Shown: positions 22,775-54,613 of the stretch, one piece after another
Layout: the number at the start of each line of letters is the position of its first letter
Position numbering within the stretch: the stretch's first letter is position 1
Source of the DNA: Phellopilus nigrolimitatus
Lineage: Eukaryota > Basidiomycota > Agaricomycetes > Hymenochaetales > Hymenochaetaceae
Reading direction: 5' to 3'
Length of the DNA: 64,000 nucleotides
NCBI GenBank assembly: GCA_021029095.1
Contig: JAJOHG010000043.1
Span: 1 to 64,000, forward strand
Notes under the pieces: generated by a model
Database searches by the model: none
The model's input: only the letters and a program-made list of their open reading frames with translations
Told to the model about the DNA's origin: nothing
Program-made: the position numbers and the translations under genes

Positions 22775-25700
22775 ATGGACGATTCAAGAGGACGTGGTCG
22801 AGGTCGAGGTGAACGCGGTCAGCGTGGTCGGGGCGTGTCACCTGGCCAGCGAGGTGGCTCTCCTATGTATCGTGGAGGCCGTGGAGAGTCTCCTTCCGGA
22901 TCGAGCGGACGCGGATCTCCAGCCGGCTTTCGCGGCGGCGGCGGCGGCGGAGGAGGAGGAAAAGGTCGAGGTCGAGGCGGACCTGTCCAGATATTCTCAC
23001 CAAATGCGCCAGCGCAAACCGACGCGCGGCTATCGGACAAGGAGCAAAACGCGCTCATTGCTGGCTTCAAGTCACTGTCGACGTCTGTCCCTGATCGTGT
23101 TGTGCGTCCGGGCTTTGGGAAGCGCGGTGCCGCTATCACCCTTCGTGCGAACTTCTTCGCACTCAAGTATCCGAAAAACGCTGTTCTCTATGATTACGCC
23201 ATCGAGATCAAACCCGCCGTGAAAACGGAAGAGAAGCGTCTTCGCAAACGCTTATTCGAGCTGTTGGAGTCCACGGAGGAGGTAGCGCCATATCTTCATG
23301 AGATCTGTCACGACAGGGCGCAGAGGCTGATTTCGAAGAGGCCGCTTCCGGCAAATTTCTCTGCGACAGTCCCGTTCTACGAGGCCGGCGAAACGGGGCC
23401 TCGTCCCGGGGGGAAGGTCTACACAATCAAGGTACTCGAGCCGAAGGAACTCAAGTCGGCTGACTTGGACCGGTAAGCCGATCTCCTATCCATAACATAA
23501 GTGGAGCTGACCAATCTTTTCAAGACACTTACAGGGCGCTGATGTGAATTACGACCCACTGCCAATTATTTCTGCGTTTAATCTAATCGCGACCGCGCCC
23601 GCCTCTCGCGATGGCATACTTGTCGGTAAAAATCGCTATTTCTTCCCGCCCTCTGCTCTGGGCGAGTCTCCGCTCGTTCTGAGTGCGGGCCTTGAAGCTT
23701 GGAAAGGCTTCTTCGCCAGCGTGCGACCGGTTTACAAAAACCTGATGGTGAACGTCAACGTCTGCATGAGCGCGTTCTACATCCCGAATGCGCGCCTCAG
23801 TGATGCGATGATCAAATATCAGCAGATGTCGTACGGGGCGAGCAACCCGCAGAGGTTCTATAAACGCGTGCGGGTCACGACAAAGCACTTAGGATTTCGC
23901 AAGAAGAGCGGCATCAAGGGTTTCGAAAGAGACACGGCAAGGAAGACTACTTTCCAGTGCGACGAACTGGGCGGGAAAGTCAGCGTGGAGCAGTACTTCC
24001 AGCGGAGTAAGTTCATTCTCATATGGCTGACTATATACTAAAAGCAATTACTCTGTAGAGTACAGTATTCGCCTCCAACACGCGGACGACTTGCCTGTCA
24101 TTAATCTTGGGAACAAGACCAAGGACATATTTGTCCCCGCGGAGCTCTGCGAGATCGAGCCGGGCCAATCGTACGGGGGTACGCTCTCCGAACGCGAGAC
24201 GGCGGAGATGATTACTTACGCGTGCAACCCTCCATTCGTCAACGCTCAGTCAATCACTGGCCAGGGCCTGGGCATACTCGGGCTGAGGCAGCGCGCGTCG
24301 CCGATGCAAGGTTTCGGCATCGAGGTCTCCGCCGACATGACGGTCGTCCCCGCCCGTGTCCTTATCCCTCCAAAAGTAGTCTACTCGTCCGGTTCACCAA
24401 ATGTCGCTAACGGATCATGGAATATTCTCAATGTGCGCTTCCACCGGCCCGCGCAACTTACTCGCTCTGCCATTCTCGTTCTCGCGGATGGCGGGCGCGA
24501 TGACTTTAGAGACAACTCGGACCCAGCTCTGCGTGGCATCGTGACAGGATTCCTGGCGAAATGTCGCGCGAGCGGAATGCAGGTCGATTCCGCTGTTCCG
24601 CCACTACTTTTCCTGCGGCTCCCGAAACCACAGAAACGCGACCCGCTGCGCTCCGCGGCGATTGATGCGATCGAGAATGAACTTAAATCGCTTCCTGGAC
24701 GCCCGACAATTGTCCTCGTTTTCATGTCGGGTCGTGACTCAAATATATACCCAGGGCTGAAGAAACTCTGCGACTCTAAGCTTGGAATTGCGACCGTATG
24801 CATGTTGATGCCAAAAGTCAGGAAGGAAAAAGGTCAAGATCAGTACTTTTCAAACATCGCCTTGAAGGTCAACACAAAGCTTGGCGGCGTAAACCACCAG
24901 CTTGACGCAAGTTCCATGCGTTGGCTTAAGAACTCGATGATCGTCGGGATGGATGTGACGCACCCTGGCTTAGGATGTGTTAAGGGGACGCCATCGATCG
25001 CCGCTGTCGTGGCAAGCTGCGATACAGAGTTCATGTTGTACCCTGCGAGCTTGAGGCTTCAAGAATACAGGAAAGAGGTGAGTTTCGAATCTCTGTTGTT
25101 GTTTTGCTCGCTGAAGTTCCCATTACCAGATGATCACGGACGTCAAGATCATGATGACCGAGCGCGTTAATGAATATTTGAAACGCATGAAATCGCTCCC
25201 AGAGCGCGTCGTCGTGTTCCGCGATGGCGTCTCCGAAGGCCAGTTCGACCAGGTACTCATTCATGAGCTCCCGGAGATACGAGCCGCTCTCCGCTCTTTC
25301 AAGGGCAAGACACCCAAGCTCACAATTGCCATCTGCGGGAAGCGTCACCACACACGCTTTTACCCGACGAAGCCCGAGCAGGCTGACAAGACATCAAACA
25401 CGAAGGCTGGAACGCTCGTCGACCAAGGCGTCACCGCGGTTTACAACTTCGATTTCTACTTGCAGGCGCATGCGGGCTTGCAAGGCACCGTGCGCCCGAC
25501 GCATTACACTGTGATCTTTGACGAGAGCCGTTTTCCCGCGGACGAAATCCAGCAGGGCGCGAACGACGTCAGCTACTTGTGGGCGCGAGCGACGAAGAGC
25601 GTGAGCCTGATCCCACCGGCGTATTGGGCGGACACCGCATGCGAACGCGGTCGACTCTACTTGCATGCCATCCTGCCTCCGCTTCCAGACAGTATCGAGA

Positions 25701-25795
25701 GCGAAATGACTGAAGATCAGATCATGCGCAGGGCTAGAGAGCTGTGGGGCAACGGCGTTCATGAAAACCTTAGGGGTTCGATGTTTTACTCCTAA
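22775..25795 (+). CDS. Argonaute, catalytic DEDD type (copy 1)
   Basis: This is a eukaryotic Argonaute, the small-RNA-guided effector of RNA interference. Four exons (22775-23472, 23525-24006, 24059-25077 and 25130-25795) join to 954 codons. Residues 1-70 are an RG/RGG-rich tail with a poly-glycine run. The N domain follows, then the linker and PAZ region (LMVNVNVCMSAFYIP, FQCDELGG, ADDLPVINLG), the MID domain (LGIATVCMLMPK, KLGGVNHQL) and PIWI. The slicer tetrad is complete: Asp692 in GMDVTHP, Glu733 (last codon of exon 3), Asp765 in FRDGVSEGQ and Asp901 in YWADTACERGR. The spacings (41, 32 and 136 residues) match those of known eukaryotic Argonautes. An aspartate at the fourth position, in place of histidine, is usual in fungi. 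The C-terminus GSMFYS is also canonical. It should therefore cleave targets. Its paralogue is at 37361-40273 and its presumed partner gene is convergent, 622 bases downstream. Confidence 0.95.
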
Positions 25796-26417: not shown

Positions 26418-26939
26418 TTACAGGATCTTCTGCACTTCTCTCTCCATCTCCGAAAGTTTTATGATCTTATGTCCGTATTCCTTTCCAATCCCGAAGTATT
26501 CCAACCTGCCGACGACTGCCGCGTTCTTGTCTACTTTACTATAGGCCGGGCGGGCTCGATCGCCGACGCGCGCAAATATCGAGTCGAACGACCTCTGCAC
26601 AACGTACGACAGCCAATGCTTGCGGTCCTTCCACGCCTTCGTAGTACTGAATAGCTGCTGCAGCGCGTCATACCAGGCCGTATTCTCGTAATTCTTGTGG
26701 ATTTGGACGGCAGTCTCGAGCCCGTAACGGTCTACCAGCTGCTTCGGGCCGACATTCGGCTTGAACGCCGTGCGGGATCCCGTTGCGGGATTGAAGACGA
26801 ACGGTGCGAGTTCGCCAGTCTGGCCATCCTTCGACCAGTAAAAGCCATAGGTCTGGTCTTTGCCTTTGCCGAGGTAGACGATATAGAGTGACCTGGCCTC
26901 GAAGGAGCCTGAGAAGCCGGTGAGTTGTACTTGCGACAT
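26418..26939 (-). CDS. Small protein of unknown family (Argonaute-linked, copy 1)
   Basis: This single-exon frame encodes 173 residues. I do not recognise the family. A second member at 45089-45697 aligns along most of its length and starts with the same MSQVQL. Shared blocks are GKxQTxGFYWSxxGxTGEL, the motif NTAWYxALQQLFxTTK and a stretch ending in DxNAAVVxxLExFG. There is no signal peptide, transmembrane segment or obvious catalytic motif. The composition is that of a compact soluble protein with aromatic residues, and the middle and C-terminal parts look helical. Conservation of two coding copies, each in an Argonaute-containing neighbourhood, supports a real gene and suggests a functional link. 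That link is inference from position and duplication only. Confidence 0.75.
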   Translation of the reverse strand: MSQVQLTGFSGSFEARSLYIVYLGKGKDQTYGFYWSKDGQTGELAPFVFNPATGSRTAFKPNVGPKQLVDRYGLETAVQIHKNYENTAWYDALQQLFSTTKAWKDRKHWLSYVVQRSFDSIFARVGDRARPAYSKVDKNAAVVGRLEYFGIGKEYGHKIIKLSEMEREVQKIL

Positions 26940-27063
26940 TATTGTTTATAGATCAAAAGTTGCTGTCAAGAGTTGTTGTATAAGAAGCTTGGATATGTGC
27001 GTGTCTGAACAGTGAGATTTGGATGCAGTTGTGTTGGAGAATTTTGAAGGGAGGCGGCTTGGT

Positions 27064-27070
27064 ATTTATC
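27064..27070 (-). promoter_or_regulatory. TATA box of small protein 1
   Basis: On the minus strand GATAAATACCAAGC lies about 125 bases before the start codon. The paralogous gene at 45089 has TATAAATACCAAGC about 93 bases before its start. The shared 13 bases in two otherwise diverged upstream regions mark this as a core promoter element. Confidence 0.6.
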
Positions 27071-27478
27071 CCCCCCGGGCCACCCCGGCCTCGGCCATGA
27101 ATGGCGAGTAGGTGCAAGTCACCACAGTAGTAGTGTGGGAAAATCTGAACTTCGGATTCCAATGTTTACATTGCCTACAAAGTTTCAGAGTCAATTGAAG
27201 CAAACGCCACACACGTGCAAGACAACTTGCCTTCGAAACGGACGTGCTGTCGCGCATTTCTTGATCCATTTCGTGTTTCGCCATGCCACGTCGAACAGAT
27301 TTGCTCTTGCCTGTGCTCGCATCCGCGTTTCGACTTGTCGCAATCGGCGTGAAACGAGATTGCCATTTAGTAGATGCCCGTTAGCTGTGGCAATCTCTTT
27401 CCCCAACAATTTTAGAGTCTTTGCTCTCCGTTTCTTGCTCGAGGGAGAGGCAGGACCTACGCGAAGTTTGCGAGGAAG
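27071..27478. other. Upstream flank of small protein 1
   Basis: A C-rich run (27070-27077) sits beside the TATA box. Overlapping short frames on both strands at 27.13-27.6 kb have no family resemblance and I do not call them. Confidence 0.4.
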
Positions 27479-30825: not shown

Positions 30826-31987
30826 CTATGCCACATTTGGAACTCTTTGGTTCGAAAGACAATCAAGCCGCAGCTTCGTTTCCAGCCTCCGCTCTCGTGC
30901 CACACTTTGAGTTCCCAATTTTCGATTTCGTATCTTAAACTCGCTCTGAAAATAAAGATCGCACTTGTGGTCAGAAGGGCACCGAAATTCCCGGCGCATT
31001 TGATTATCGCCTAGAACCGCTTAGAACGCCAGGGTACGAAGTCGATGACGCTGTGCGCTCATAACCCAGCGCTCCGAGTCGGTGCCTTCGCAAACTCTGC
31101 TCGTGGGCACTGCGTCGACGAGAAGCTCTGGCGAGTTTCCAACAGAACCTAAAGGTATTCCTCTGAAAGGGATTTTCATTCTCACTGATACTTCTACGCG
31201 TCGGATTATTTGATGCGCATCCGGCACGGCGAGTTTTCCTGCTCTCTTACATGACCCTAACCTCTTCTTACCCTATGCATATGCTACTTGCAATATCGTC
31301 AACCTTACCATGGTAGGACGACGCTTCTTGAAGCTTTAAAGTTCCAACATGTGTTGGTGGTATCAGCTAGAAGAGACGGTTCGACTTGTAAGTCCGGTAC
31401 TTCTGTTTCTTCGAGTCACTGCTAGGGAAATGCAGAATTTTTGCAGAACATCATGTTCTTTTAGTTTTATCAGCATCAATAACGCGTATTTCGCAATTCC
31501 TATGCAACAATGTTCGGATTCATCATTTGGATTTCGGAAGTATTCGCATATCTTTTCCCATTGTAAGGGCTACTGTCTCTTAGCCGAAGACAAATGACAG
31601 AGACAGACGCAATAGGCTGTTTTGAGATCAGAATCACTATTAGGTGGACATATACGGCATTCCGAGCCGCACGACAACGAATAGATGACCAGTGCACTAC
31701 TACAGCGCATTTTTGGCTTTCTTCAAGAGCTCCCGTTACTTGTTGAAGATGTGCAAGACGTGCCATCAATGTTATGAGATGCTTCTTTGCAGATTTAGAT
31801 GTTGCGCAGGTGACTCCCGAAGCATCTCGGGCGCATCACGATGTCTTCGCGACAGCCTTGAAAACTATTATAGCCGACGCTTGCCATTGCAGACTTTGAT
31901 CGACTGGTACAACGTATCCCCTGAGTCTTCAGGCAGCAAATTTGCCACTGCATCGTATCGACCTGCCTTATCTGACCGGCTCGTCAC

Positions 31988-31994
31988 TATAAAA
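31988..31994 (+). promoter_or_regulatory. TATA box, DUF6533 copy A
   Basis: TATAAAA lies 97 bases before the start codon. The same position relative to the start holds TATAAAA in copies B and C (42192, 48473) and TATAAGA in copy D (54515), so the element is conserved across the array. Confidence 0.65.
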
Positions 31995-32084
31995 CGTCAA
32001 CAAGGACGACAGGCTAGTCCAGCCTGCTCCCACGAGCTGACCTTCCTAAGCTTTGTCGACGGCTTGACGTGCGGGCACTTCAAG

Positions 32085-33728
32085 ATGCATTCAACACGAT
32101 CTGACGTTGAGCCTGTCGATTCAAGCCTAGTTCCGCTTATCACTTCGGAGATACATACTTGGACGTACGCCGTAGTGTCCGTGTTGACTATCTTGGTCTA
32201 CGACACCAGTAAGTCTGACGTTTTGGCCAGATACGAATTCCGCTGACAAATTGACCGCCCAGTTATCACATTGGACAAGGAGGTACGCAAATCTTGGCAA
32301 TAGAACCTCTATGTCTAGACTGATCATCGTAACGGTATCTCTAAGATCAGATACTTTTGGGTATGTCACTTTCGTAATATCAACACCAGGAATAGTATGC
32401 TTACTAATGCGGCGAAAAGAGCGCTCCCTGCAGGATTGTCAGCCTAATTTACTTTGCGGTAAAGAGCATCTCACAGCTTATTCTAAAAAAGTAAGCTGAT
32501 CAACAACTCTAACGAATTGTCGTAGAATCGCTATGTTGGAATCATTGGAGCCATTTCCGGTTTACTCGGTAAGCTGTACACAAACCTTACGTGAAAATGC
32601 ATTTTAGACAAGTCCGTCCACTGACATTGCCTTCTACAGTTCAGTCTTTTCATGCAAATGAAACGTTGTGAGTAATCCCTGATTAAAATACTACGTCTCA
32701 CTTTAACTAATTCTAACTGACTCTAAATCTCACTCGTAGGTGTAAGCATTCAGATGCTATATTTGGTCTCTACTGACGATATCGAAAAGGTCTCGGCGCT
32801 GTTTGGATTGAGAACCTTACAAGTGAGTTCTTTAATATTGCATAAATCAATATTTTGCTCATTCCGAGGAAGATTGGATGACTACGTTGTTGATGAACTG
32901 TAATAACACCGCCCTCCTTACAATAGACAAAGTATTCATCGAGCTCTAATTGTTTCGTAGACATCCTTTTGATGAGGGTCCTAGCGCTTTATTTTCAAGG
33001 TGAGCAATCCTGATATTGCGGAATACTTCTTATGTTTATATTATGCAGACAAGAGATTAGCTGTATACCTAAGGACTATATTTAGCCTCGGGGCATCGGT
33101 GGGGATAGGATTTCTGATCTTTGGCAACATATACGCAGAGAGTAAGCAGAGCTTGTCGATGTTGATTGCATAGCTCACTAAATAAATGTTACAGTTTCCA
33201 TAGAGAGTCTCGCAGAAGGCGTAACAGTATGTGCTGAAAATAGAAGCCCTCCAAGATTTTGGCGTGCAGTATCTTGGTGAGTATTGACATTTCCGGTCAA
33301 AATCTATTACTTATCTGGAACAGGGCTGCGCCATTGCTGTATGGAATCATCTTAATGGTCCTAGCGCTACATAAAGCTGCACAGCACTGGAGGGAATCGA
33401 ATGGCTTCGGTCATTCCAACCTTGTTAAGGTGCTCATCCAAGATCAGGCCATCTATTTCGTTTTGTATGTTTTTCTTTCATGCATGACCAGTGTCGACAA
33501 GCTGACTAGCCTGACAGGGTCGTATTTTTCAGTGTTATGAAAGTTGTAGCAGGTCATTTGCGCATCCCCAATTTGCTTCTGGCTAATCTCCTGGCGGTTT
33601 TGGGAGGCCCCAGCATTCTCTCTGTCCTTGGGAGTCACCTGTTGGTTAATATGAAGGAAGCTGGAGAGAGGGGAGCCAATGGGGGGCCCATCGGAATGGG
33701 TACCGTGAGCAGCATGGGATTTTCCTGA
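32085..33728 (+). CDS. DUF6533 multi-pass membrane protein, copy A
   Basis: This is a basidiomycete seven-helix membrane protein with an N-terminal DUF6533 domain; the function is unknown and a receptor-like role has been guessed for the family. It is split into about ten short exons. The domain can be read across exons 32085-32208 (MHSTRSD to LVYDT), 32263-32282 (ITLDKE), 32346-32360 (IRYFW), one ending near 32456 (SAPCRIVSLIYFA) and one from 32524 (NRYVGIIGAIS). Later blocks are DILLMRVLALY near 32980, RLAVYLRTIFSLGASVGIGF near 33060, AAQHWRESNGFG near 33380 and a last exon 33533-33728 ending in SMGFS. Joins in the middle, at 32640-32960, are not resolved; each simple reading meets a stop, so a hidden splice or a lesion is possible. 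The end exons are open. Confidence 0.55.
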
Positions 33729-36700
33729 TTTTGCGAAGGGAAATCCAAGGTGACTGCATCTGCTTTGACCTTCCCAGGCTGCTGCGCGGGACTGACTGAT
33801 CATTTAGCAGTCGTATAAGACATGTATACTTCTGCACACCCATCCGATCTTTTATGTACATGTACTCTTGCCCTTACTTCTTGTGCCTATTCTAACTGTC
33901 GGGTTCTCGCTGGGCGAAGAAATACGAGTTCTGTTCAGTTTCAGCACAACTATCGATTGCATGCATATTCTCGTACAGCTCAAAATGAGATAAGATAGTA
34001 CAGTGAGAACACGTCATGATCGCTCAGCCACCCTGCGTTCCATCACGTACTTGCGGCACGATGAGCGCGAGTGGCGACGTGCCTTACTGATTCGCCTGCA
34101 CGACTGAAATAGTTCGCTAGCGTCAGTGACGGAGACAAACGGTAATGGGAAAGACGAAGAGAAAGCGCGCCAACTTACATGTGTGCCTCCAGGTGCTAGG
34201 TAAGCGTGTTCCAGGACCAACGCGCCCTCGGGCACGAGTCCACACGCTGAGGAAAGTGGCACGCCTGTCCGAGGATCGCGAGAGAGCGCAGTGCCCAGTT
34301 CCCACACCGTCTCTTTGCGTTTGCTTTCGAGCCCTAGAGTATGGCCGTGAGCGTTTTGCGCTGTCTGAACATGAGAGACAACATGTCGCGTCGTAAAACT
34401 TGAAGTCTTGAGACGGTCATGTGGAGAGACGGTCGGGACAAACGCATGTGCGTCAAGCGCTCCGTTCAGTAGGATTTTCTCATGTAATAGACGCACCGGT
34501 CTTCTTAAGGACTATGTACATAGGACTATGTGCATAACAGACTGCTTTGGCAATGCAACCTGATAATGAATGAAGCCACGCTGGATACCTAACAGCGCGC
34601 ACACTGGATGAAACCAGATTATGGGCGGAATATTCTCGCACAGTGCCTTAATGGTGCTGCCTCCTCCCGTCCGGCGGTCGACACGAGGCGCCCATCTCGT
34701 CTGCTGCATCAACAGCGCAGATCGCATCGGAAGCAAACTCGTTCAGCTTTGAGATCGAAGGACGTTAAGAGAGACGTACGCTATTCGTTAACAAGACCCA
34801 GCATTCCCGCCGCGCGCTTCCAAGCAAACCGAGAAGGACCCTCGGCCGTCCTGTCTCTTACTGTCTTGCTCTCTCAATCCGTTCTATCGCCTGGCGCACG
34901 GTGCGGTACCACTTCTGCTCGCATCCGCGCCCTCAGCCAGATATCTGCGCACTCCTCCCTCTGCGAAGCCGCGAGCCCCAAGGTCAGAAATGGACGAAGG
35001 GAGAGAGAATCGGAGGCGCACCGTTGTAGCCATACGCGCACAGAGTCCGGAAACAGCGCGCTAGCGGCTAGAGTCCGTTATCGTTTCGCAGGTGAAACAG
35101 GGGTAGATTTGAGCTGTACATGTACCTTGCTCCTTCCTGCGTCTGCTTGCGCATGATATTTAGAAAGTGAAACTTTTTGCAGGGACGAGAAGCGAAAGTA
35201 TTCTGTCGTCGAGGAATGATGCATGATGTTTTACTGGTGATTGTGTATGTCGACGTACCGGAGAACCAGGTAGCAAATGCGAGATCGAGAAACATGTGCG
35301 CAAGAAACGCACAAATATACACAGTCGCGCCCATCTTCCATCTTTATTCTTCCATCTTCGCATCTCTAGGACCCCCGCGTCGTGCTTTCCCCCGCGTCTG
35401 ACGACGTCGAGCACGAGAGAGCCATGGGCGCAACCGAGGCAGACGGTGCCGGGCCGCCGGCACTGCCGGCGACTTGAAGTTGAAGCTTGAAGTTGAAGGC
35501 CGGCTACTAACGCCGCTCGTCGTCTGGCCTGAACGCCTCGATGCACTTTGTGCGCGCAAAGACCTATAGCTAACGAAGCGAGCAAGCGCCTCTGCTTTCT
35601 GTGATATTGTTTGTTCCCATACATCTCCAGCGACATGCGCCGGTGGCGAAAAACGACTCGACGGGCTCCAGTTCGTCCAACTCGATCGCGGCCGCAAACG
35701 AGACATCGCGTGCCCGATGGCTCTCCTCCAACGTCGGACAGCTGCAGTGCCGAACGATTATAAAAGCAGTTTCATTTGTTCGTTCTCCAACTACATTCTC
35801 GCGTGGCTTCTGGGTTGAACGCAGTTCTCTCGCTCTCTCTTTTCCTGAAGGGGCGAAACTTTCGCACCTTCAGGAAATGACGTGCTAAGAATACATAGCT
35901 GGTTTCACGCTCTCTGGATCCATCGCCCTGCAACTTGTTGAATGAATGCTGGAGAAAGGGACTGTCATCGGCATGACAGCCTTGAAGAAGACAAAAATTG
36001 GGCCGCGTGCCGACTGAAACTGTACGGCTAGTGAGTGGATTGTTGTCAATACTGCATGGAATTTCGTATGTGCAAATAAAAACATGAATGCCTGTATTTA
36101 GATTCCAAATGCTCTCCCAATAGTTACGCTTTTCTCCTTGCGAAGAAGCGACAGACAATATTGGAAGACAAGGACAGTCACTAGAAGACGAACCTGGACT
36201 TTGAACCTGAACTGCTGCGAGCCCTACTATCGCGATTGCTAACTTGGAGTGAATCGAAGGAGCGCTATTTTCCGCGAACTAAACCCGCAACAGGCCGCGA
36301 GAGCGCGAGCGGAACAGCGTCACAATGGCTGCGGTACTGCCCAAAGTTAATTCCGGACTTGAGCTGCGCGGATGAGAAGCATTGAGAACCACTGGAAGTA
36401 CGTACAGGTGGCTGCGAGAGATGAATGGATAGAATGCGAGTCTAGAGTACAAAAGCAATGCGCAACTAGTACCGCAGAGACTGTGCACTGTGTCTTCGAG
36501 ACAACGGCTTCACAGTCTTGATTAGCTCCATCATTTGAGTTCAACAGTAGAAGAAGACTTGAACTTCAAACGATGAAACCCGGAATGCTTGACTCAATGA
36601 GAGTAACCACCCTTGTTTTTCGCATTTATAGCAATGCCACTTTTTGATAAATTGACCGTACAGTACGTACATAGAAGAGAGCCGGACAGCGAAGAACATC

Positions 36701-37262
36701 GGACAGCGAAGAACATCTTTAGGGCCGGTATTCTCGTGACAGCAGAATCACGTGCTCTCGCATATCCTGCACTTCATTTTCAACTTCAAGTCTCGACAGC
36801 TCACGACTTCTGAAACTCTCGTCGGTTTGCGACCGTGCACGACGGTCTCCGTATACCGCACTAACTGCGATGTAATCGTGTGGTCAAAAGGCTGGTGGCA
36901 TAGATTCAATATACGCAGTTCTTGCTGTTGGCGCAGGCATATCTTGCAACAATGGTGAACAACACGCTGCGTTCACAACACCCGACTTGTTCTGCAGCGA
37001 GTGACAACCGTAATACACTCGTGCATCGATAGGCGCAGGTAGCTGCGAGTTAAGAGTGAGTTCTCAATCTGATGTGATTAACGAAGAGTAGGGTCTTAAC
37101 CGCATTTTTAGTGCTCGCACTGACTCGGAGTGAGCTCTTCTTCGCAGCATCCGAAGCACGCCGCGTCTTCTTCTGTATTTGCGTTCGACTGCGAATGGAG
37201 CTCCTAAAAATGTCTATAGCTGCGATCAAAATCTTCATGAGACGGCAAGTGCTGGTTTTCGG
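33729..37262. other. Non-coding tail of unit 1 and Argonaute 2 upstream region
   Basis: No gene is supported. The part to about 35.6 kb consists of blocks repeated in units 2 to 4. In units 2, 3 and 4 the matching interval carries extra genes or gene remnants that are absent here. From about 36.6 kb the sequence shares blocks with the region upstream of Argonaute 1. Frames of 60 to 180 codons exist on both strands but carry no family motif. Confidence 0.45.
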
Positions 37263-37270
37263 TACTTAAG
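37263..37270 (+). promoter_or_regulatory. TATA-like element of the second Argonaute gene
   Basis: TACTTAAG with the following GCGACGCGTACGTC corresponds to the element at 22693 in the first Argonaute promoter. It lies 98 bases before the start. The shared GTACGTC block suggests that the second copy kept a working promoter. Confidence 0.45.
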
Positions 37271-37360
37271 GCGACGCGTACGTCTCATGTTGCCTCATCC
37301 TATCCGTCCTATCCACTTCAGACACTGCTCAATCTCACTCATATACAACAAAGGACTATC

Positions 37361-40273
37361 ATGGACAACTCCAGAGGACACGGTGTAGGACGAGGTGATC
37401 GCGGCCAGCGCGGCAGAGGCATGTCTCCCAGCCATCGAGGGGGCCCTCCTATGGCTCGTGGGACACACATCGACTCGTCTTCGAGGTCCGCTGGAGCTGT
37501 ACAGGTGTATGCTCCCAACTCTCCCGCGCAGTCCGACGCGCGGCTCACGGACAGAGAGCAGGATGCGCTTGTCTCCCGCTTCCAGGCACTGTCGGCCGCA
37601 GACCCCGACCGCGTCGTGCGTCCGGGATTTGGGAAGCGCGGTGCAGCGATCGCAGTTCGCGCGAACTTCTTCGCGCTCAAGTATCCGAAGGATGTCGTCT
37701 TGTATGACTACCCAGTCGTGATCACTCCCGAAGTGGACTCTAAGCCCCTTCGTAAGCGCTTATTCGAGCTTTTGGAATCCACGCAGGAGGTCGTGCCCTA
37801 CCTTCACGAGATCGCGCACGACTGGTCTCAGAGGCTGATTTCGAGAAGCCGTCTTCCTGTAGACTTTTTGGCGACGGTCTCGGAAGGACCTGAGAGGGTT
37901 TACACTATCAGTGTTCTCGAGCCGAAGGTACTGAGGTCTACAGACTTGGATCGGTAAGTATTGATATTCTCAATTAGACATGCGACTGACCCTATTCGAA
38001 AACAAAATGTTTCTAGTTACCTGCAAGGCGAGAATGCAAGCTATAATCCTCTCCCGCTCATCTCGGCCTTCAACCTCATCACGACCGCGCACGCCTCGCA
38101 CACGGGCGTGTCCGATAGGAAAGGTTACATGTTTCCTCCTTCTGCTTTGGGAGAATCTCCGCTCGCTCTCAGTGCGGGTCTCGAGGCCTGGAAGGGGTTC
38201 TTCGCGACCGTGCGTCCTGCATGCGGGAAACTGATGGTCAACGTAAACGTCTGCATGGGCGCGTTCTACGTCCCGAATGCGCGCCTCAGTGATGCGATGG
38301 TCAAATATCAGCAGACGTCGTACGGGGCAAGCAACCCTCAGCGCTTCTATAGGCGCGTGAAGGTCACCACGAAGCACCTAGGCTACCGCAAGCAGGTCGG
38401 GATTAAAGCTTTCGGAACTCAGTCGGCAAAGAAGACGGTCTTCCAGTGCGACGAACTGGGCGGGATGGTCAGTGTCGAACAGTATTTTCAACGAAGTAAG
38501 CACAATGGCATGTGTAACTACTTAGATCTTAGACACTCACCACAATATACAGAATTCAACATTCGCCTCCAACACGCCGACGATTTGCCTGTCATCAATG
38601 TTGGAAGTAGGACGAAGGACGTTTTCGTTCCCGCAGAGCTTTGCGAGATTGAGCCGGGCCAGACTTTCGTGGGCGTGCTCTCTGGGAGCGAGGCTGCGGA
38701 GATGACGAAGTACTCGACCAACCCTCCATATGTCGATGCTAAGGCGATCACAGAGCAGGGCCTAGAAGTACTGGGTTTGCGTCAGGGTGCGCCGCCCATA
38801 CAGGGCTTCGGGATCGAATTGTCCAGAGACATGGCCGTCGTCCCCGCTCGTCTGCTGAGCCCGCCCAAAGTCATTTACTCGTCCGGCTCTCTCACCGTCG
38901 CCAACGGGTCCTGGAACACGCGCGACGTCCGCTTCCACAGACCTGCGCAGCTCACTCGCGCCGCCATTCTCGTCCTCGCAGATGGCGGGCGCGATGACTT
39001 CAGGGATTCCTCGGACCCGGTACTGCGCGGCGTCGTGACGCGGTTCCTGGCGACGTGTCGGACGGGCGGGATGCAGGTCGACGACGCGCTCCCGCCGCTT
39101 CTTTTCGTGCGGCTCCTGCAAGCGAACCCACGCGACCCACTGCGTGCTGCGGCGATCGACGCGATCGAGAACGAGATTAAGACGCTCCCTGGTCGCCCGA
39201 ACATCATGCTCGTTTTCGTATCCAACGGTGGGATCTACCCGGGTTTGAAGAAGCTGTGCGACTGCAAGCTTGGAATTGCGACCGTCTGCATGTTGATGCC
39301 GAAAGTCAAGAAGGAAACGGGTCAAGACCGGTACTTCTCAAACATCGCGCTAAAGGTCAACGTGAAGCTTGGTGGCGTCAATCACCAGCTCGATGCAAGC
39401 TCTATGCGCTGGTTGAAGAACACAATGCTCGTCGGCATGCGTGTGACGCACCCTGGTGTTGAGACACCGTCTATCGCTGCTGTCGTGGCAAGCTGCGATG
39501 AAGAGTTCATGCACTATCCGGCGAGTCTTCGCCTCCAGGAACACGGGAAAAAGGTGAGTGATGACCTCTGAACTTCCTATAATTCTAAACTGACAGCTTC
39601 ATCCGAACAGATGATTACCGATGTCAAGGAAATGATGATCGAGCGTCTCAACGAATATACAAAACGGATGAAGACTCTTCCCGAGCGCGTCGTCGTGTTT
39701 CGCGCCGGCGTCTCTGATGGCCAGTTCAAGCACGTACTCACCCACGAGCTCCCGGCGATCAAGGCCGCGTTTCTCTCTTTCAAGGGCAAGAGCCCTAAGC
39801 TTACTATTGCGGTCTGTGGGAAGCGGCACCGCACGCGCTTCTACCCAACGAGGTCCGAGCAGGCCGACAAATCGTCGAACACGAAGGCCGGGACGCTCGT
39901 CGATCAAGGCATCACTGCCGTCTATGACTTTGACTTCTACTTGCAGGCGCACGCGGGGCAGCAGGGCACGGTGCGCGCGACGCATTACACCGTGATATTC
40001 GATGGAAACCGTCTTTCCGCGGACGAGATCCAACAGGGTGCACACGACGCGAGCTACCTATGGGCGCCCGCGACGAAGAGTGTTCGGCTGGTCCCACCGG
40101 CGTACGCGGCGGAACGGGCGTGCCAGCGCGCGCGGCTCTACCTGATTGGGATCATCCCTCCTCCGATAAGCAAGGAGAGTACCATTGATCATGCGCTGAT
40201 CATGCGCAGGGCAAAAGAGCTATGGGGCACGGGCGTCCATGAGAATCTTCGGGGCTCCATGTTCTACTTGTGA
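37361..40273 (+). CDS. Argonaute paralogue with all four catalytic residues replaced (copy 2)
   Basis: Exons 37361-37953, 38017-38495, 38553-39553 and 39611-40273 join to 911 codons, with introns at the same places as in copy 1. The domain order N, PAZ, MID and PIWI is intact and most structural motifs match copy 1 (LMVNVNVCMGAFYVP, LGIATVCMLMPK, KLGGVNHQL, GSMFYL). The RG-rich tail is shorter and has no poly-glycine run. The slicer tetrad is gone: Arg654 in GMRVTHP for Asp, Lys691 for the glutamate finger, Ala723 in FRAGVSDGQ for Asp, and Glu859 in YAAERACQRAR for Asp. Spacings still match copy 1, apart from a 4-residue deletion after GMRVTHP. With no stop or frameshift in 2.7 kb of coding sequence, it looks like a maintained, non-cleaving Argonaute. 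It could bind guides as a decoy, silencer or inhibitor. Confidence 0.93.
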
Positions 40274-40919: not shown

Positions 40920-42191
40920 AGAGCGTACGCGCTGGTACGGGCCATTGCTCTCTCTTCCGTGCTGCTTTTCGTTCAGGCCGTCGACGCCAATTTCAGTCTC
41001 GTACTACTCATTGGTATCTCGTTGTTTCTTCTTTATTCAAATAGGACTACTCTCTCAAGTACCTCCACGTGTGGCACGTTTGAACTCTTCGACGTGAAAT
41101 CCCGTCAAGCTCTCACCTCCGCGTTCGTAGACTTAGCCAATCGACGCGACCAGACATTGAGCTCTCAGTTCTCAACGCTCGGATTACGAAACCGCTCTGA
41201 AAGAAAACTCTCATCGTTCTCTTATGTTGCAGTTGCCGCCTGAAGCGCACTGAAAAGCTCTGTGTCCTTTGGATCGTCCACGCTCGGCGATTTCGTGGAT
41301 GATACTGAAGGCGCGTCACGTCGAGCACTCTGGCGAGCGCGGAACAGATGCGGGTCTTACGCCGAAGGGTACTTCTGCTCACGCAATGATATATCAACTA
41401 CGCTTCAGTCACACACGCGCTCTATCCTGCTCTTTGACCTAGCACCAAGCTCTTCACTTAGTGCGCCGTCCTCGTGCTGCTGTGTTGTCGCCGACCTCGC
41501 CATGGATATCTGGCAGGATGACTCTTTTTGAACCTTAAACATCCGTAGATACGCTAGCGACATCAAATAGGAGGCCCTGTAAGTCCGGTCTTTCTGTTTC
41601 CTCGGGTCATGGCTAAGGAAATGCTCCTGTCCGGAAAAGAAAAGTGGACTGCGATGCACAGACACGAACGACGCGTTTCTTCAACTGTATTAGTGTCAAT
41701 CACGTTTCAGTAGGCGGAAGATCCAGGCGTGTTTATTTGATGATGCGATGTGTCAATGTTTTCATATTCGGTAATCTCTCATCCTGAACCTTTTAGAACT
41801 TCCTTACATTTGTTTTGAATCACACAGCCCAAAAATTACGTATATGTATATATGTACTTCGGAATTCCTGCGCTCGATTTGATCCTCTGGATTCCGGCGG
41901 TATTCGTACCGTTTCTCCCGTTGAAAAGGCTTGTTGACTGCTCTTTATAACGCAAACTAGATGGGGAAGCTATACGCAACAGTCAGATTTACAGATCCCA
42001 TTCGCTAATGCGTGGTCATCGGGCGTTCTTGAGCCAGTTTTTAGTATTGCCGATGTCGAATGCGTGTTGACCTCGAAAGCAGGCCTCTCCTCACAGACTT
42101 GTATCAGCCGAAATAGCGTATTGCCTGAACCTTCGAGCAGCAAATGTGCCATTGACTCGTATCGGTCTGTCTTATCGTACCGGCTCGCCGT

Positions 42192-42198
42192 TATAAAA
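42192..42198 (+). promoter_or_regulatory. TATA box, DUF6533 copy B
   Basis: TATAAAA lies 98 bases before the start codon, in the same sequence context as in copies A, C and D. Confidence 0.6.
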
Positions 42199-42289
42199 TG
42201 CCTACAAGGATGTTCGGCTAGCCCAGCTTACGCCCCCGAATAGCCCATTCTAAGCTTCATTGAAACTTGACGACTGCAGACGCCTCACT

Positions 42290-43928
42290 ATGCATTCAAC
42301 ACAATCTGACATTGAATCTATTGATCCAAGTCTCGTGCCACTTCTCGTCTCAGGGAGTATGTACGGCCTAGTGGCATTGTTAACTCTCTTGGTCTACGAC
42401 ACCAGTAAGTTTTGCATCTCAATGGGTGTGCCAGGTAGCTGCGATGACATTAATTGTTCAGTTATCACAATGGACAAGGAGGTAAGCGAAACTTGACATT
42501 TATATCTCGATGTCTAGACTAATTGCAGTATCTATTAGATAAAATACTTCTGGGTATGTCTTTTCCACAACAATAACGTGGGGAATAGTGTATCTACTCA
42601 TGTGGCATGAAGAGCTCTCCTTGCAAATTTGTCAGCTTGATTTACTTTGCGGTAAGTAAGATTGTACAACTTATTATAAAGGAAATAGCTGATCATCTCC
42701 TCTAATGAATGGTTATAGAGTCGATATCTTGGAGTACTTGGAGCCATTTCTGGTATAGTAGGTAAGCTGTACTCAATTCTTTAATAGGAGTGCATTAAAA
42801 ACAAGATTGTCCACTAATACTGTTTTTATACTCAGTTGTTACTCTTCAAGCAAATAAAACACTGCAAGTAATCTCTTATCATTGCATTATAACTCATTGA
42901 AGCTAAATCTAAATGTGGACTCATTTATAGGCGTAAGTTTCCAGATACTCTTTTTTTTTTTTTCTTTACTAATGATAGTGAAAAGGCCTTGGTTTTATTT
43001 GGACTCAATATCTGTCCTGTGGGTTATCAATTGTTCCATAAAACAAAATTCTACTCATTCAAGCAAAGATTGGACGGCTGTCCTTTTAATTGACTGTAGT
43101 GACATCTCCTTACTACATATAGTATGCAAAATATTCATCTGCCACTAATCATTTATGCAGATATTCTTCTGATGCGGATTTTGGCTCTCTACCACCAGGG
43201 TAAGGCACTCCTGGTACCACCAATGCACAAGTGATGTTTGAATCCGGCAGACACAAAACTGACTGCATGTTTGAGGATTCTATTTGGCCTGGAGGCAGCT
43301 TTTGGGCTGGGTGTTCTAATATACATCATCATATATTCAAAGAGTAAGCAAAATTATTTATTGTAGAGTGTACAATTCACTAAACAATTGTTCCAGTTTC
43401 TGTACAGAGACTTACAGAGGGTGTAACAGTATGTTTTCTTCATAGAAGGCCAAAAGTCTGGGGAGCATTAATATGGTTAGTACTGATGTCCTTGAGTGAA
43501 TATTTGTATTGATTTAAAACAGGGCTGTTGCAATGCTCTATGCAATCATTCTAATGGTTCTAGCTCTCCACAAGGCTGCACAACACTGGAGGGAGTCAGC
43601 TGGTTTCGGTCAGTTTAGCCTTCTTAAGGTGCTCATCCAAGATCAAGCCATCTACTTTATTTTGTATGCTTCTTGATGTATAGCCAGTGGTATATGAGCT
43701 GACTAGTCTGACAGGGTCATATTCTGCAGTGTTATGGGGATAATTTCATATCAATTTAATGTCCAAGATTCTTTTCCTGAACTTCTCCTAGCCGTTTTGG
43801 GAACTCCCAGTATTCTCTGTGTTATTGGGAGTCACCTGTTGATCCATCTGAAGGAAACTGGAGAGAAACGAGGTGGTGGAGGGACCAGCTACAGGATGAG
43901 GACCATGAGCAGTATGAGGTTCACCTGA
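42290..43928 (+). CDS. DUF6533 multi-pass membrane protein, copy B (integrity uncertain)
   Basis: The exon blocks of copy A recur in order: MHSTQSD to LVYDT from 42290, ITMDKE, IKYFW, the block PCKFVSLIYFA ending near 42650, DILLMRILALYHQ near 43165, TKLTACLRILFGLEAAFGLGVL near 43265, VRPK-like sequence near 43450, AAQHWRESAGFGQFSLLKVLIQDQ near 43580, and the final exon ending in MRFT. Relative to copy D a few residues are missing after VPLLVS. A long T run (near 42950) falls in the least conserved middle exon and could shift the frame. The donor after the exon near 42868 reads GCAAGT, a possible GC-AG intron. The final exons are open, so it could be functional, but I cannot show a complete frame. 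Confidence 0.45.
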
Positions 43929-44995
43929 ACTTGCAAAGAAAATTCCAAGGTGATTGCATCTCTTTCCTGCCGGAATCTGAGTGACCATTCACAAGTCGTG
44001 TAGAACATCCAAATACTCCTGCACTCCTGTCCGGTCTTTTATTTACTCTTACCGCTTATTCTTTTAAATGTCCTACATTGTCGAATTTTCACTGGACGAG
44101 GAAATACCAGTTTGTTTGCGCGTACACGAGCTCACTGTTCTTGTTCTGCTCAGATTTGTCACAACCATCGACTGCATGCAGATGTTCGCGCAGCTTAGAG
44201 AAATAAGATGATACAGCAGCAGTGCGCAATGATCGCTCAATCGCCTTGCGCTCTATCGTATGTTTGAGCAGCGAGTTCTTCACAACCCGCTTAGTGCATT
44301 GGCATGAGAGACCGAGAGAAGAGAAAAGACAAAGGCGAGGAGAGGTCTCGAGGTGCTCGGTGTCCGGGTTCAAAAATGACAAATCTCGGGCACGACTCCG
44401 CACGCTGCCGGAGTGGCATGCCTTTCCAGCCCCGCGCCGTGTTCTTATGCTTAGTTCTGGAAGCCCTACTAAGAGAATGACCATGCGTTCTTCGCGCTGA
44501 AATTCTGTGTAGAATAGGGACATTTGCGTACGTACGAGACTCGTCGTTGAGGTTTCCGTCTCCATCTTCAACTACATGCTCTAAACTGCCGGTGCTTTCC
44601 GGAAACACTGGCCACATCGCATGGACTGGCACAATAACGTCTGAATGCGTAGCTTGCGCTTTGCTCCCCTAGGTAGTGCCGTGGCGGTGCCGACCGTAAT
44701 TTGAAAGTCGTGTCGACCATGCGGTCGCGACAAGGCGAACCAGGGATGTGAAAGCAGCCAAGGAAAATAAAAGGCCAGTTGCCCGCAGGTCATGCAAACG
44801 CCGGAGGACCGGCAGATGTACGTCTGCGATATTCGGCCTGGTGGGTGGCGGCGCCTCCGGGCTGTCGCTCCTGAAACGTTTCGAACAATGCAGGACATGC
44901 ATCCTGACGGCCAGACACGCTCTCCCTAGTCTCCTATGGCAGCCCGTACCTGCAGAATGCTCCAGCGCGCGCACTGGCCGATCGCAATAGGGGTG

Positions 44996-45697: not shown

Positions 45698-48472
45698 ATT
45701 GTCACTGTACTTCTGTTTAGCAGTATTTAAACCCCGCTTTGTTCGCGTAGCTGCAATAAATTCTCCTTCGACTAGCTATGATATTGCAATGAAGCATCTG
45801 CGAGTCTAGTCGGCGATTCGGATGAAGAGCGATCCTGAAAGTGTGCGTCGGTTTGGACATTTTAGATAGAGTTTATCGGCCTGTCAACTCCTCACAATCC
45901 CTTGCGAGGAAGTAAGTGAAAGTATCTCTCGATAGTCGAAGTTGATGCATAACTGCGAGGGAGTGACTTGGAGTCGGATTTAGAATATGTGCGAACGCTG
46001 TGCGGAAAACAGAGTATCGGAGGTGCACTTACTTGGCGGTCCTGTATCTAATTGTGTCGCCGCTGGTCCTTCACGACATGGGTGAACTACCGTCGTACAG
46101 AGGCATTTCTCCCTGCCGTCAAGCGGCTCGACATGACACGTCCATCTCGTCTGCGCTTTTCCGAACCTCCAGTGTGCAGAAGACCACTGCACCTTCGGTG
46201 ACTGCAGCAGCAGCATAAATCAGATCGAGAGCAAACGCTTAGCAGCTGCCCTCCGAGTTCGGGTGACATGAAGAGGGACGTACGCTATTCGTGGACACGA
46301 CACAGCATACCCGCCGCTTGTTCTGGGCCTTCGTGAGAGGGACGCCACGACGCCGACGCGCTGCCCATCGCCGTATCAGGAAGACTCTCCTCTTCCTCCT
46401 CCTGCTGATCCGCTCCTCGGCCCGCTCCTCTGTTTTACGCGTAGTGCAGTGCCCCCTTCTTCCCGAGCATCCGGGCCTTGCGCATCACTGCGCATGTGCA
46501 CGCTCCCCTGCAGAATTGCACGGTCAGAATGGGACGAAGACAAATAGAATCGTAGACGCGCCATTACAGCCATACGCTCGCAGAGTCCGTGGACGGCGCG
46601 CCCGCGGCGCGGAAGATATCGTTTCGCGGGCGAAACATGGACTGTAGTACGGGTAGGTTACGTGTCCGCGTGCCTTGCTGCGTCTCCTCGCGCGGAAGAT
46701 CTTTAGCACGCGAAGGTCATGTATGGACAAGACGCAACCACATCTTGTACTAAGTTGTAGTCAAAGAATGATGTATGGATATCGGCACGCTGGAGAACGA
46801 GACACCGAGCACGAGATCGAGGATGCGAAAGAGAACGCTGAAGGTGACGGTGACTTTTGAAAGTGGAAGCCGGCTACTAAAACCGTGTCAAGTTCGTCGA
46901 GCCGATGCAGGCTGCGCGCACGAAGGCCTAGCGCTTCTTACATCTGTATTGCTCGTCGCGCTCGTCGCTCTTGGCTATGCCTGTCCAGCGCCCCGAAACA
47001 GCTTCTGTTTGTCGATGGAGCCGATCCAGAGCCCCCAGGAGCGCGCGGGAGGCCGTCGGGCTCTGTCAGCGTGCGCGTCCGTCTGCGCCTGTCTGCAGTC
47101 GCCAGCGTCGTCGCAGAAGGTGCTCAAGAGGAAGAAACGTTGCCGGCATGGAATACCCAATCGCACAGGATGATTTTTATTATTTACGTATTTTGGCAGC
47201 CCCGACTCCGTCGGGAGGAAAACAGACGGCCGTGGTACATGTACGTGTGGCAGTACAGACGAACTGCTTCCGTTGCAGCCAACCTTAGCCTCGATAGGCT
47301 ACTCGTCTGTCTTCTCGTTGTTTCTCAATTTAAACATGACTACTCTCTCAAACACCTCTACCTGTTCCGCATTTCGAACTCTCCTACATGAAAGCCCGTC
47401 AAGTCGCAGATTCACTTCACGTATCCGTGCTCGCAGAATCGACGTGACCAGAAATCATCAATAAGCTCTCAATTGTCAACGCTCAGATTGCAAAACCGTT
47501 TTGAAAGAAAACCTGTCCTTCTCATATTTCTCTCGAGTTGCATTTGCCGCCTGAAGCGCACTAAAAGGCTCCGTGTCCTTAGGGTCGCCCACGCTCGACG
47601 AATTCGCGAACAATATAATAGGTGCACCATCGTCGAGCAGCTCGGGCAAACTTCCGGACAGGCGGAACGGACGCGGGTCTTACGCCACACAATGATATAC
47701 CAATCATGCTTCACACCTCATCATTGGGGACGCGCTCGACGGCGTTTTCTCCTGCTCTCTTACCTATCACCAATCTCTTCTCACCCAATGCGCCGTCCTT
47801 GTGCTATCGCGTTATAATCGCCTCGCCATTTAAGGACGACACTTTTTAAAGCTTAAAACATCCGTATAAACGTTGGCAGCATCAACTAGGAGGTCTTGTA
47901 AGTCTAGTCTCCTGTTTCCTCGAGTCACAGCTAATAGAATGCGCCTGTCTGAAAGCCAAAATTGGACTGCAATGCACAGACGCGAACATCGCGGTTCTTC
48001 GGTTGTATCAACATCAATTATGCTTCATCACGACAGCTGGTCTAAGTATACGTATAAGCTAGTACAAATGTTCCATTTTCTTTCACATCCGGTAATCTCT
48101 CCTCGTGCATTTGTCTGAAACCAACTTACATTTGTTTTGAATCACGCAACTGGGGAAGCATACTCTTGTATGCCACAATGCCCGATTTGATCGTCTGAAT
48201 TCTGGCGGTATTCGTACACCTTCTCCCATTGAAAAAGCACGTTAGCTGCTCTTTATAGCACAAGCTAAATCATGAAGCTATGCGCAACAGTCTGATTTAC
48301 AGTTCTCACTCGCTAGTGCGTGGACATCAGGAGTTCTTGAGCCTATTTTTTAGGATCACCGACGTCGAACGTCGCAGACTTTGATCAGCCGAAATAATGT
48401 ATTGCCTGAATCTTCGAGCAGAAAATGTGCCATTGACTCGTATCGGCCTGCCTTACTTTACCGGCTCGCCAC

Positions 48473-48479
48473 TATAAAA
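48473..48479 (+). promoter_or_regulatory. TATA box, DUF6533 copy C
   Basis: TATAAAA lies 91 bases before the start codon, in the same context as the other three copies. Confidence 0.6.
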
Positions 48480-48563
48480 TGTCCACGAGGATAGGCCAAC
48501 TTACGCCCCCGAACAAACCTTTCTAAGCTTTATTGGAAACTTGACGTCTGCAGACGCCTCACC

Positions 48564-50690
48564 ATGCATTCAACACGCTCTGACATCGGGTCTCTTGATC
48601 CAGACCTAGTGCCACTTCTCGTCTCAAAGACAGATACCACTATGTATGGCCAAGTGGCAATTTTAACTTTCTTGGTCTACGACACCAGTAAGTTTTGCAT
48701 CTTGATGGGTGCGCTAGGTACCTGAGATGACATTGATCGTGCAGTTATCACGATGGACAAGGAGGTAAGCAAAGTTTGACATTTATATCTCGATGTCTAG
48801 ACTAATCATAGTATCTATAAGATAAAATACTTTTGGGTACACTACTTTTCTAACATGTACACCATGCATAGCATATTTACTTATGTGGCACGAAGAGCTC
48901 TCCTTGTAAATTTGTCAGCTTGATCTACTTTGCGGTAAGTAAGATTTTACAGATTATAAGTTAGATAGCTGATCAACTCTTGTAATGAATGGTTGTAGAA
49001 TCGCTATGTTGGAATTCTCGGAGCCGTTTCTGGTATAATAGGTAAGCCGTACTCATATCTTTAAAAGGAGCGCATTTAAAACAATAATGTCCACTAACAC
49101 TGTCTTTCATACTCAGTCGTTGCTCTTCCAGCAAATGAGCCACTGTAAGTAATCTCTGATTATTGCTTGAAACTAACTCTAAAATGCGGACTCGTTTATA
49201 GGTGTAAGTGTCTAGATACTATATTGTTTCTTTACTGATATTAGTGAAAAGGCCTTGGCTTTAGTTGGATTATAGGTCTATCATGTGAGTTATCAATTAT
49301 CCCATAAAACAGCATTTTACTCATTCAGGCAAAGATTGGATGACTGGCCTTTTAATCGACTGTATAACATCTCCTTGCGTACAATTGACCTGCCACTAAT
49401 CATTTGTGCAGATATTCTTCTGATGCGGGTCCTGGCACTCTACCACCAGGGTAAGGCACTCCTGATATCACCAAAACACCAATGATGTTTTAAACCCGGC
49501 AGACAAGAAACTGACTGCATGCCTGAGGACTCTATTTGTCCTGGAGGCAGCTTTTGGGCTGGGTGTTCTGATATACACCATCATACATGAAAGGAGTAAG
49601 CAGAACTGATTATTGTAGAGTGCACAGCTCATTGAACAGTTGCTCCAGTTTCTGTAGGGAGACTTGCAGAAGGTGTAACAGTATGTTTACTTAATGGAAG
49701 CCCAAAGGTTTCAGGTGCATTAGCTTGGTTAGTACCGACATCCTTGGGTAAAGGTTTAGACTGATTTAAAGCAGGATTGAGACATTGCTGTATGCCATTA
49801 TCCTAATGGTTCTAGCTCTCTTCAAGGCTGCACAACACTGGAGGGAGTTAGGTGGTTTCAGTCAGTTTAGCCTTCTTAAGGTGCTCATCCAAGATCAGGC
49901 CATCTACTTTGTTTTTGTTAGAACTTACCTTGCTTACCTCACGACCCCCTTACATCATTCCTTCCTCGCTTAGTCAGGCCTTTCACCTTTCCATTATCTT
50001 TCCCTTAGTTCATGGCCTGACCCCTTCCTCATTGTACGCGCCCCTCCTGGGCGTACCCCGCTCCACGCTCCACTGCCTCATTCCATGCTCCACTGTACAT
50101 GCCCCTTCCGGGCCTTTCCCTCACGCTCCCCTCATGTCATGCTACGCATGACTCCACAGCTCCGCTGACATCATAGTCAGCCTCATAGTATATATAGGTA
50201 CATCGCTGGGACCTTAAGCCCCAGCTTGACCTCCTTGTTCAGTAGCTAGCATAGTCTTGCTATTCATCGCCTTTGCTCTTCATAGTCTTGCGCCCAGCGC
50301 TTCACAGTCTTGCCATAGTCATTGTCGCCTTGTCACAGTCAAGCCTCACGTCACTCGTCACATCACTGTCCACAGTCACGCTCCTCGTTCCATTAGGCAA
50401 GACCCTGTTACTCCGTAACAGTTTTGTATGCATCCTTAATGTAAAACCAGTGGTAAATGAGCTGACTGTCCGACAGTGTCATACTCTGCAATGTTATGGG
50501 GATAGTATCATTTCAGTTTAACACCCAAAATTTGCCTCTGGCTAGTCTCCTGTCTGTTTTGGGTTACCCCAGACTTCTCTCTGTCCTTGGGAGTCACCTG
50601 CTAGTTCATCTTAAGGAAGCTGGTGAGAGGCAAGCCAATGGAGGAACCAGCTACAGGATGAGGACCATGAGCAGTATGCGGTTCTCCTGA
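48564..50690 (+). pseudogene. DUF6533 membrane protein, copy C, split by a solo LTR
   Basis: The exon blocks match copies A, B and D: MHSTRSD from 48564, ITMDKE, IKYFW, KSSPCKFVSLIYFA, NRYVGILGAVSGII, DLPLIICADILLMRVLALYHQ near 49390-49450, FKAAQHWRELGGFSQFSLLKVL near 49825-49885, and the last exon ending in MRFS at 50690. The exon that ends in IYFVF runs straight into a 505-bp LTR at 49916. The original splice donor is left on the far side of the insert, so the exon reads into the LTR and stops near 49971. Further stops in the middle exon (near 49215 and 49249) suggest that decay had begun elsewhere too. A protein truncated before the last helix is the most that could be made. Confidence 0.7.
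49916..50420. mobile_element. Solo LTR of an LTR retrotransposon, 505 bp
   Basis: The element starts with TGTTA and ends with TAACA, the usual TG...CA inverted ends of an LTR. It is flanked by a perfect 5-bp target-site duplication, GTTTT (49911-49915 and 50421-50425). It is absent at the same place in copies A, B and D, which gives a clean empty-site comparison. Inside there is a TATA-like element (TATATATAG near 50190) followed by GCTGGGACCTTAAGCCCCAG. There are no coding regions, so it is a solo LTR left by recombination between the two LTRs of a full element. Ty3 or Copia type cannot be told. Confidence 0.88.
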
Positions 50691-54514: not shown

Positions 54515-54521
54515 TATAAGA
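54515..54521 (+). promoter_or_regulatory. TATA box, DUF6533 copy D
   Basis: TATAAGA lies 99 bases before the start codon and takes the place of TATAAAA in the other copies. Confidence 0.55.
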
Positions 54522-54613
54522 TGCCTGCGAGGACGTTCGAATAGCCCAATATATGCCCCCGAACCGACCTTTCAAAGCTTCGTTGAAGACTTCACGACTG
54601 CAGACGCCTCACT

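Follow-up and report, generated by a model that had tools for sequence, protein, structure and literature searches.

An intact Argonaute paralogue of Phellopilus nigrolimitatus with a replaced slicer tetrad and signs of selective maintenance

The window analysed here, the first 64 kb (64,000 nucleotides) of contig JAJOHG010000043.1 (C368) in the 56.4 Mb assembly of Phellopilus nigrolimitatus, a saprophytic polypore with a genome of 56.7 Mb according to a table in PMC10410303, carries two Argonaute genes on the forward strand, 14.6 kb apart. Copy 1 (22775..25795, + strand) is the paralogue with the complete DEDD tetrad, and its spliced model joins four exons (22775-23472, 23525-24006, 24059-25077, 25130-25795) into a protein of 954 aa. 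Copy 2 (37361..40273, + strand) is a degenerate-tetrad gene whose four exons (37361-37953, 38017-38495, 38553-39553, 39611-40273) encode 911 aa in the spliced model. The initial annotation described copy 2 as full-length, with introns and an intact 911-codon frame, and this is what we find: the frame runs from ATG to TGA with 0 internal stops, all three introns are bounded by GT..AG, and the protein is letter-identical to P0001, a database Piwi protein of P. nigrolimitatus. The two copies share ~74% aa identity over 881 codons and have three introns each at matching positions, which rules out an origin of copy 2 as a retrocopy.

Since both genes recur on contig C4 in the same order and at nearly equal spacing, we read C4 as the other haplotype of this region. 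The C4 allele of copy 2 (L022) is identical at 5413 of 5497 aligned bases and its frame is intact; copy 2 is free of stops and frameshifts in both haplotypes. A stop in L022 and frameshifts in the C390/C27 pair of relatives (L026/L028) were rejected as artefacts of admitting GT donors only, which reads through a 57-base intron, and these frames are intact once GC donors are allowed. In all three loci the donor of intron 3 is GC, not GT, and this intron starts directly after the second tetrad codon. Contig C4 also holds, on its minus strand, an extra copy of copy 1 (L023, C4:80500-87500), which is 98.3% identical to window positions 23527-27289 and has a broken start region.

Upstream of copy 2, the flank at 36208..37360 (+ strand) matches the flanks of the intact relatives L026, L028 and L030 by blastn at ~72% identity, with matches that begin at 36208 or 36316 and continue into exon 1. 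A block repeated within the window at 68-78% identity (41017-44116, 47313-49915, 53376-56388 and 31870-33935) lies also beside eight degenerate-Argonaute regions (L024, L025, L026, L028, L030, L031, L039 and L040), so that Argonaute and neighbouring block seem to have been duplicated together; judged by eye, the block holds a multi-exon gene for a putative membrane-type protein. Comparison of 30 open frames of neighbouring genes with Pfam gave two weak matches below the curated cut-off (Dynamin_M and DSPc), none of them linked to RNAi, and the only Rfam match above the gathering score is a tRNA gene at 13156-13257 on the minus strand. That other RNAi components exist in the genome is indicated by matches to RdRP (23) and Dicer_dimer (8). 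On contig C625 an RdRP-like fragment (C625:80852-81040) and an Argonaute fragment (C625:78460-78990) are found within 2.4 kb of each other.

Where slicing Argonautes carry DEDD or DEDH, copy 2 carries RKAE in both haplotypes. Alignment of its sequence with hAgo2 puts R654 (CGT, 39440..39442) in place of the catalytic D at hAgo2 D597, K691 (AAG, 39551..39553, the last codon of exon 3) in place of the catalytic E at E637, A723 (GCC, 39704..39706) in place of the catalytic D at D669, and E859 (GAA, 40112..40114) in place of the catalytic D at the position of H807, all on the + strand; the tetrad of copy 1, D692/E733/D765/D901 (GAT/GAG/GAT/GAC), is complete. These residue numbers had been given in the initial annotation and are correct in the spliced models, as are the CGT-for-GAT and AAG-for-GAG codons to which it drew attention. 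Since the intact C4 allele has the same four codons (CGT/AAG/GCC/GAA), RKAE is unlikely to stem from a base-calling error on a single contig, and with a database protein that is identical as well, an assembly or gene-model error was rejected. Argonautes deprived of their metal-binding acids do not slice. In hAgo2 one Mg2+ is bound by D597 and H807 and the other by D669 and E637 (PMC11893014), and copy 2, in which R, K and A occupy three of these Mg2+-binding places, is not expected to slice. The clearly destructive changes are R654, K691 and A723, the change from D to E at site 4 being the weaker one: Glu is an accepted motif variant at the fourth place according to PMC4290597, so that slicing could have survived D901E by itself, and we do not count it as an inactivating change.

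In the search for relatives, scoring covered the 7992 candidates with the most shared words; 207 exceeded the cut-off and the best 120 of these 207 were used. DEDD is present in 113 of the 120 listed; the others are five Phellopilus proteins (P0001, P0002, P0011, P0013 and P0091), P0055, which has a gap at Glu, and P0085 from Mycena, which has DEGD. The column test was based on 113 fungal reference rows of at least 840 residues (111 of them DEDD), which give 157 columns conserved at 97% or above. The tetrad changes in copy 2 are more than chance, with 4/4 tetrad columns altered against 12/153 other conserved columns (Fisher p = 7.5e-5). The corresponding figures are 0/4 and 3/153 for copy 1, 2/4 and 17/153 for C90 (p = 0.07), and 3/4 and 16/153 for C27 (p = 0.006). 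The control P0008, a DEDD paralogue, is altered in 0/4 and 13/153 columns, and copy 2 is therefore not unusually loose outside the tetrad.

A search of the same genome, in which 50 of 251 candidates were scored, gave at least 95 exon-level matches; all 37 places shown, two in the window and 35 fetched, were modelled, with both haplotypes counted. Of these 37 Argonaute regions, again counting both haplotypes, 31 fall into one degenerate clade, which among the 120 listed proteins was found only in Phellopilus. The node has a support of 100 for the 31 regions in the whole-gene tree, which has 36 rows and omits the distant L032. Support is also 100 in the protein tree, there for the intact members, and 100 for the clade in the N-to-PAZ tree, but only 53 in the PIWI-only tree. 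Intact, full-length genes make up five of the 31: RKAE is carried by copy 2 and its allele, DEGE by C90 and GEGE by the C390/C27 pair. Another four (L024, L045, L050 and L052) are defect-free fragments, and 22 carry stops or frameshifts, including L051, which is counted as defective on two frameshifts that sit in a poorly aligned tail. In the decayed copies L054 and L055 the aligner found no intron, and these are possibly retrocopies. The DEDD-like L027/L029, which have defects, are the sister of the degenerate clade in the protein tree (support 75), and a sister relation between copy 1 and copy 2 is consequently not established. The view first taken, of a dead copy next to an active one, is too narrow, since copy 2 is one branch of a clade of 31 regions.

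Common to the intact members of the clade are D901E, E769D, S892R and R886P, the last of which is also found in L027/L029, where DEDD is retained. In the intact relatives of copy 2, site 4 is Glu and site 3 is Gly; C390/C27 carry Gly at site 1 as well. At site 3 the Gly of most other clade members (GGC) and the Ala of copy 2 (GCC) are one base apart, while Asp is read in the decayed L054 and L055 and in L041 (a poor model); site 1 is Asp (GAC/GAT), Gly (GGT/GGC) or Arg (CGT), and decayed loci also show Asn, Thr and Ala there. Judging from these codons, Arg654 can be reached from Asp via Gly in two single-base steps, and Lys691 from Glu in one. Since tetrad loss is spread over the clade, and sites 3 and 4 are replaced in the intact relatives as well, the charge reversals may have arisen late, by drift at a site that was already dead. 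The reversals, which had been presented as something other than simple loss, are real, but they are poor evidence of designed change. Copy 2 is the first branch of the degenerate clade in the whole-gene tree (node 100), and the PIWI-only tree, where branching has supports of 47-53, does not fix the order of loss. Between L030 and L028 dS is uneven, at 0.04 in L2, 0.18 in the N-terminal region and 0.65 in PIWI, which suggests recombination or gene conversion between these paralogues, and for this reason the codon test was redone by domain and with the clade left unresolved, which did not change its outcome.

The codon model covered nine sequences and 881 codons, with the defective L027/L029 as outgroup and stops masked, and returned a common omega of 0.148. 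The copy 2 branch has an omega of 0.147, indistinguishable from the common value (LRT 0.001), and omega = 1 on this branch is rejected (LRT 54.0). With the clade left unresolved the value for copy 2 is 0.132 (LRT 229), for PIWI alone 0.108 (LRT 43.2) and without PIWI 0.147 (LRT 172); constraint in PAZ, MID and PIWI is as strong as elsewhere in the protein. Relaxed selection across the whole degenerate clade was not seen (0.131 vs 0.161, LRT 2.99). Between the copy 2 alleles there are 15 synonymous codon changes and 8 that alter the amino acid, and their omega of 0.168, from only 23 codon differences, stands beside one of 0.167 for the copy 1 alleles. In neutral simulations from the C90 sequence (300 runs each), the fitted branch length produced 4-22 stops and half that length 1-16, against 0 in copy 2. 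Within the same genome, decayed paralogue pairs have an omega of 0.49-0.79 in 10 of 11 cases and of 0.27 in one, intact pairs have 0.12-0.15 (5/5), and C90 compared with seven decayed loci has 0.23-0.29; since the decayed pairs give high values, the method is able to pick up decay in this family, and it finds none in copy 2. The stops, frameshifts and omega near 1 of a pseudogene are absent from copy 2, which combines a lost tetrad with purifying selection on the rest of the protein. The initial annotation had argued against random decay and had named dN/dS on this branch as the means of checking it; the value obtained, together with two haplotypes free of stops and frameshifts, bears the argument out. 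An intact, selectively maintained Argonaute lacking a usable slicer tetrad is the description that the sequence evolution of copy 2 supports.

Pfam matches above cut-off in copy 2 are ArgoN, ArgoL1, PAZ, ArgoL2 and Piwi. ArgoMid was not listed by Pfam (E 0.001), yet the MID region can be aligned with that of relatives, the predicted model matches human AGOs over residues 80-911, and the domain order is that of the eukaryotic AGO clade (N, L1, PAZ, L2, MID, PIWI). An Argonaute fold is predicted for copy 2 (pLDDT 83.5), and the best matches of the predicted structure are guide-bound human Argonautes. Of the hAgo2 residues that we take to form the guide 5'-phosphate pocket (Y529, K533, Q545, K566, K570 and R812), copy 2 keeps those aligned with Y529, K533, K566, K570 and R812, while the Q545 position is V, as it is in copy 1 and in 76/113 relatives; by alignment, the pocket appears to be preserved. 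At two further positions, hAgo2 R792 and S798, which are presumably guide-backbone contacts, copy 2 has P844, where R is kept in 111/113 relatives, and R850, where S is kept in 113/113, and guide binding may be altered as a result. The N-terminal RG tail has 7 RG pairs in copy 2 vs 14 in copy 1, and 7 or fewer are found in 14/113 references.

We suggest, with a probability of about 0.6, that copy 2 is a maintained pseudo-slicer, that is, a guide-binding, non-slicing effector. The suggestion builds on the intact frame, RKAE in both haplotypes, purifying selection that includes PIWI, the retained pocket residues and the predicted fold. From these we infer that copy 2 would be expressed and would load a small-RNA guide, that the loaded protein would pair with targets that it cannot cut, and that it would act by occupancy and by recruiting a silencing complex or RdRP as partners, alongside copy 1, which is of the slicing type. 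That PIWI is constrained no less than the rest of the protein points to a cleft that still accommodates guide and target; P844/R850, the shorter RG tail and the decay-prone clade (22/31 regions) speak against such an effector. Its main rival, appreciably less probable, is a guide sink or competitor, in which copy 2 takes up the small RNAs and targets of copy 1 without cutting and so damps slicing by copy 1. The closeness of the paralogues and the kept 5'-phosphate pocket agree with this, and the non-slicing properties just listed apply to it equally, but two guide-backbone positions and the RG tail are unlike those of copy 1, which could equally mean different guides or partners; we infer that a non-slicing effector is more likely than a guide sink.

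Loss of the tetrad together with two presumed guide-backbone contacts, in a protein otherwise constrained, would fit a copy 2 that is kept for protein contacts and is no longer a guided binder, but such an RNA-independent or structural role is improbable given the invariant 5'-phosphate pocket residues and a constraint in PAZ, MID and PIWI equal to that elsewhere. Still less probable is early decay, with selection just lifted and the frame open by chance: stops or frameshifts in 22/31 regions of the same clade, and an allelic omega drawn from only 23 codon differences, leave some room for it, against which stand a branch omega that matches the background and for which a value of 1 is rejected, a PIWI value of 0.108 and two intact haplotypes. 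That copy 2 still cuts by way of a rearranged active site is scarcely credible; E859 is acidic, and of a kind accepted as a variant in PMC4290597, but the other three tetrad positions are R, K and A, and mutation of D669 renders hAgo2 catalytically dead (PMC11893014). It is conceivable, although we think it doubtful, that R654 and K691 are not the product of drift and that their cations replace the two Mg2+ and grip the scissile phosphate of the paired target, so that a slicer has become a metal-independent clamp. If so, the full pairing that usually leads to cutting would instead signal long-lived binding and recruitment.

The basidiomycete AGO clade, represented by copy 1 and by relatives from Phellinidium, Sanghuangporus, Coniferiporia and Fomitiporia (61-67% identical to copy 2), has the same domain order and the same 5'-phosphate pocket residues as copy 2, whose introns are common to copy 1; copy 2 differs from it in RKAE instead of DEDD, in P844 for R and R850 for S, and in an RG tail shorter than that of copy 1. 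Human AGO1 and AGO4 and the C. elegans WAGOs depend on binding and recruitment rather than on strong slicing. Copy 2 probably has an origin independent of these animal proteins, as it lies inside the Phellopilus/Hymenochaetales AGOs, in a tree built without animal sequence. The AGO family of Phytophthora offers a parallel, being an expansion in one lineage with several substituted tetrads (such as C-D-D-R or N-D-G-K) and some pseudogenes (PMC6284064), but it is an oomycete family of separate origin, and the available part of that paper leaves functional copy versus pseudogene open and contains no selection test that we could see. Likewise, Glomeromycotina and rusts have expansions of many AGO-like genes, some without canonical features (PMC6399891; PMC7082362; PMC12210899), in phyla or subphyla other than that of copy 2: Rhizophagus has 40 AGO-like proteins (PMC6399891), and Gigaspora copies are described as lacking PIWI catalytic residues and rust AGO1-like copies as mostly pseudogenes (PMC12210899), while PMC7082362 reports missing domains for Gigaspora, the words residues, tetrad and slicer being absent from its text. 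In a mushroom study the VvAgo1 subfamily has a complete tetrad (PMC7522536). A literature search of open-licence PMC texts found no paper on copy 2.

Degenerate Argonaute expansions are thus already known elsewhere, and copy 2 is a well-supported further case. What is new is that a basidiomycete Argonaute has its whole tetrad replaced, with the replacement fixed in both haplotypes of one assembly, and is kept under purifying selection, with decayed sisters as control. As far as their available text goes, the papers on oomycete and fungal AGO expansions leave the choice between function and pseudogene open; the sequence evolution of copy 2 favours function. One genome here holds a natural series, from DEDD through intact DEGE and GEGE to intact RKAE, with many decayed copies as an internal control, and this series makes a selected non-slicing function of a fungal Argonaute directly testable.
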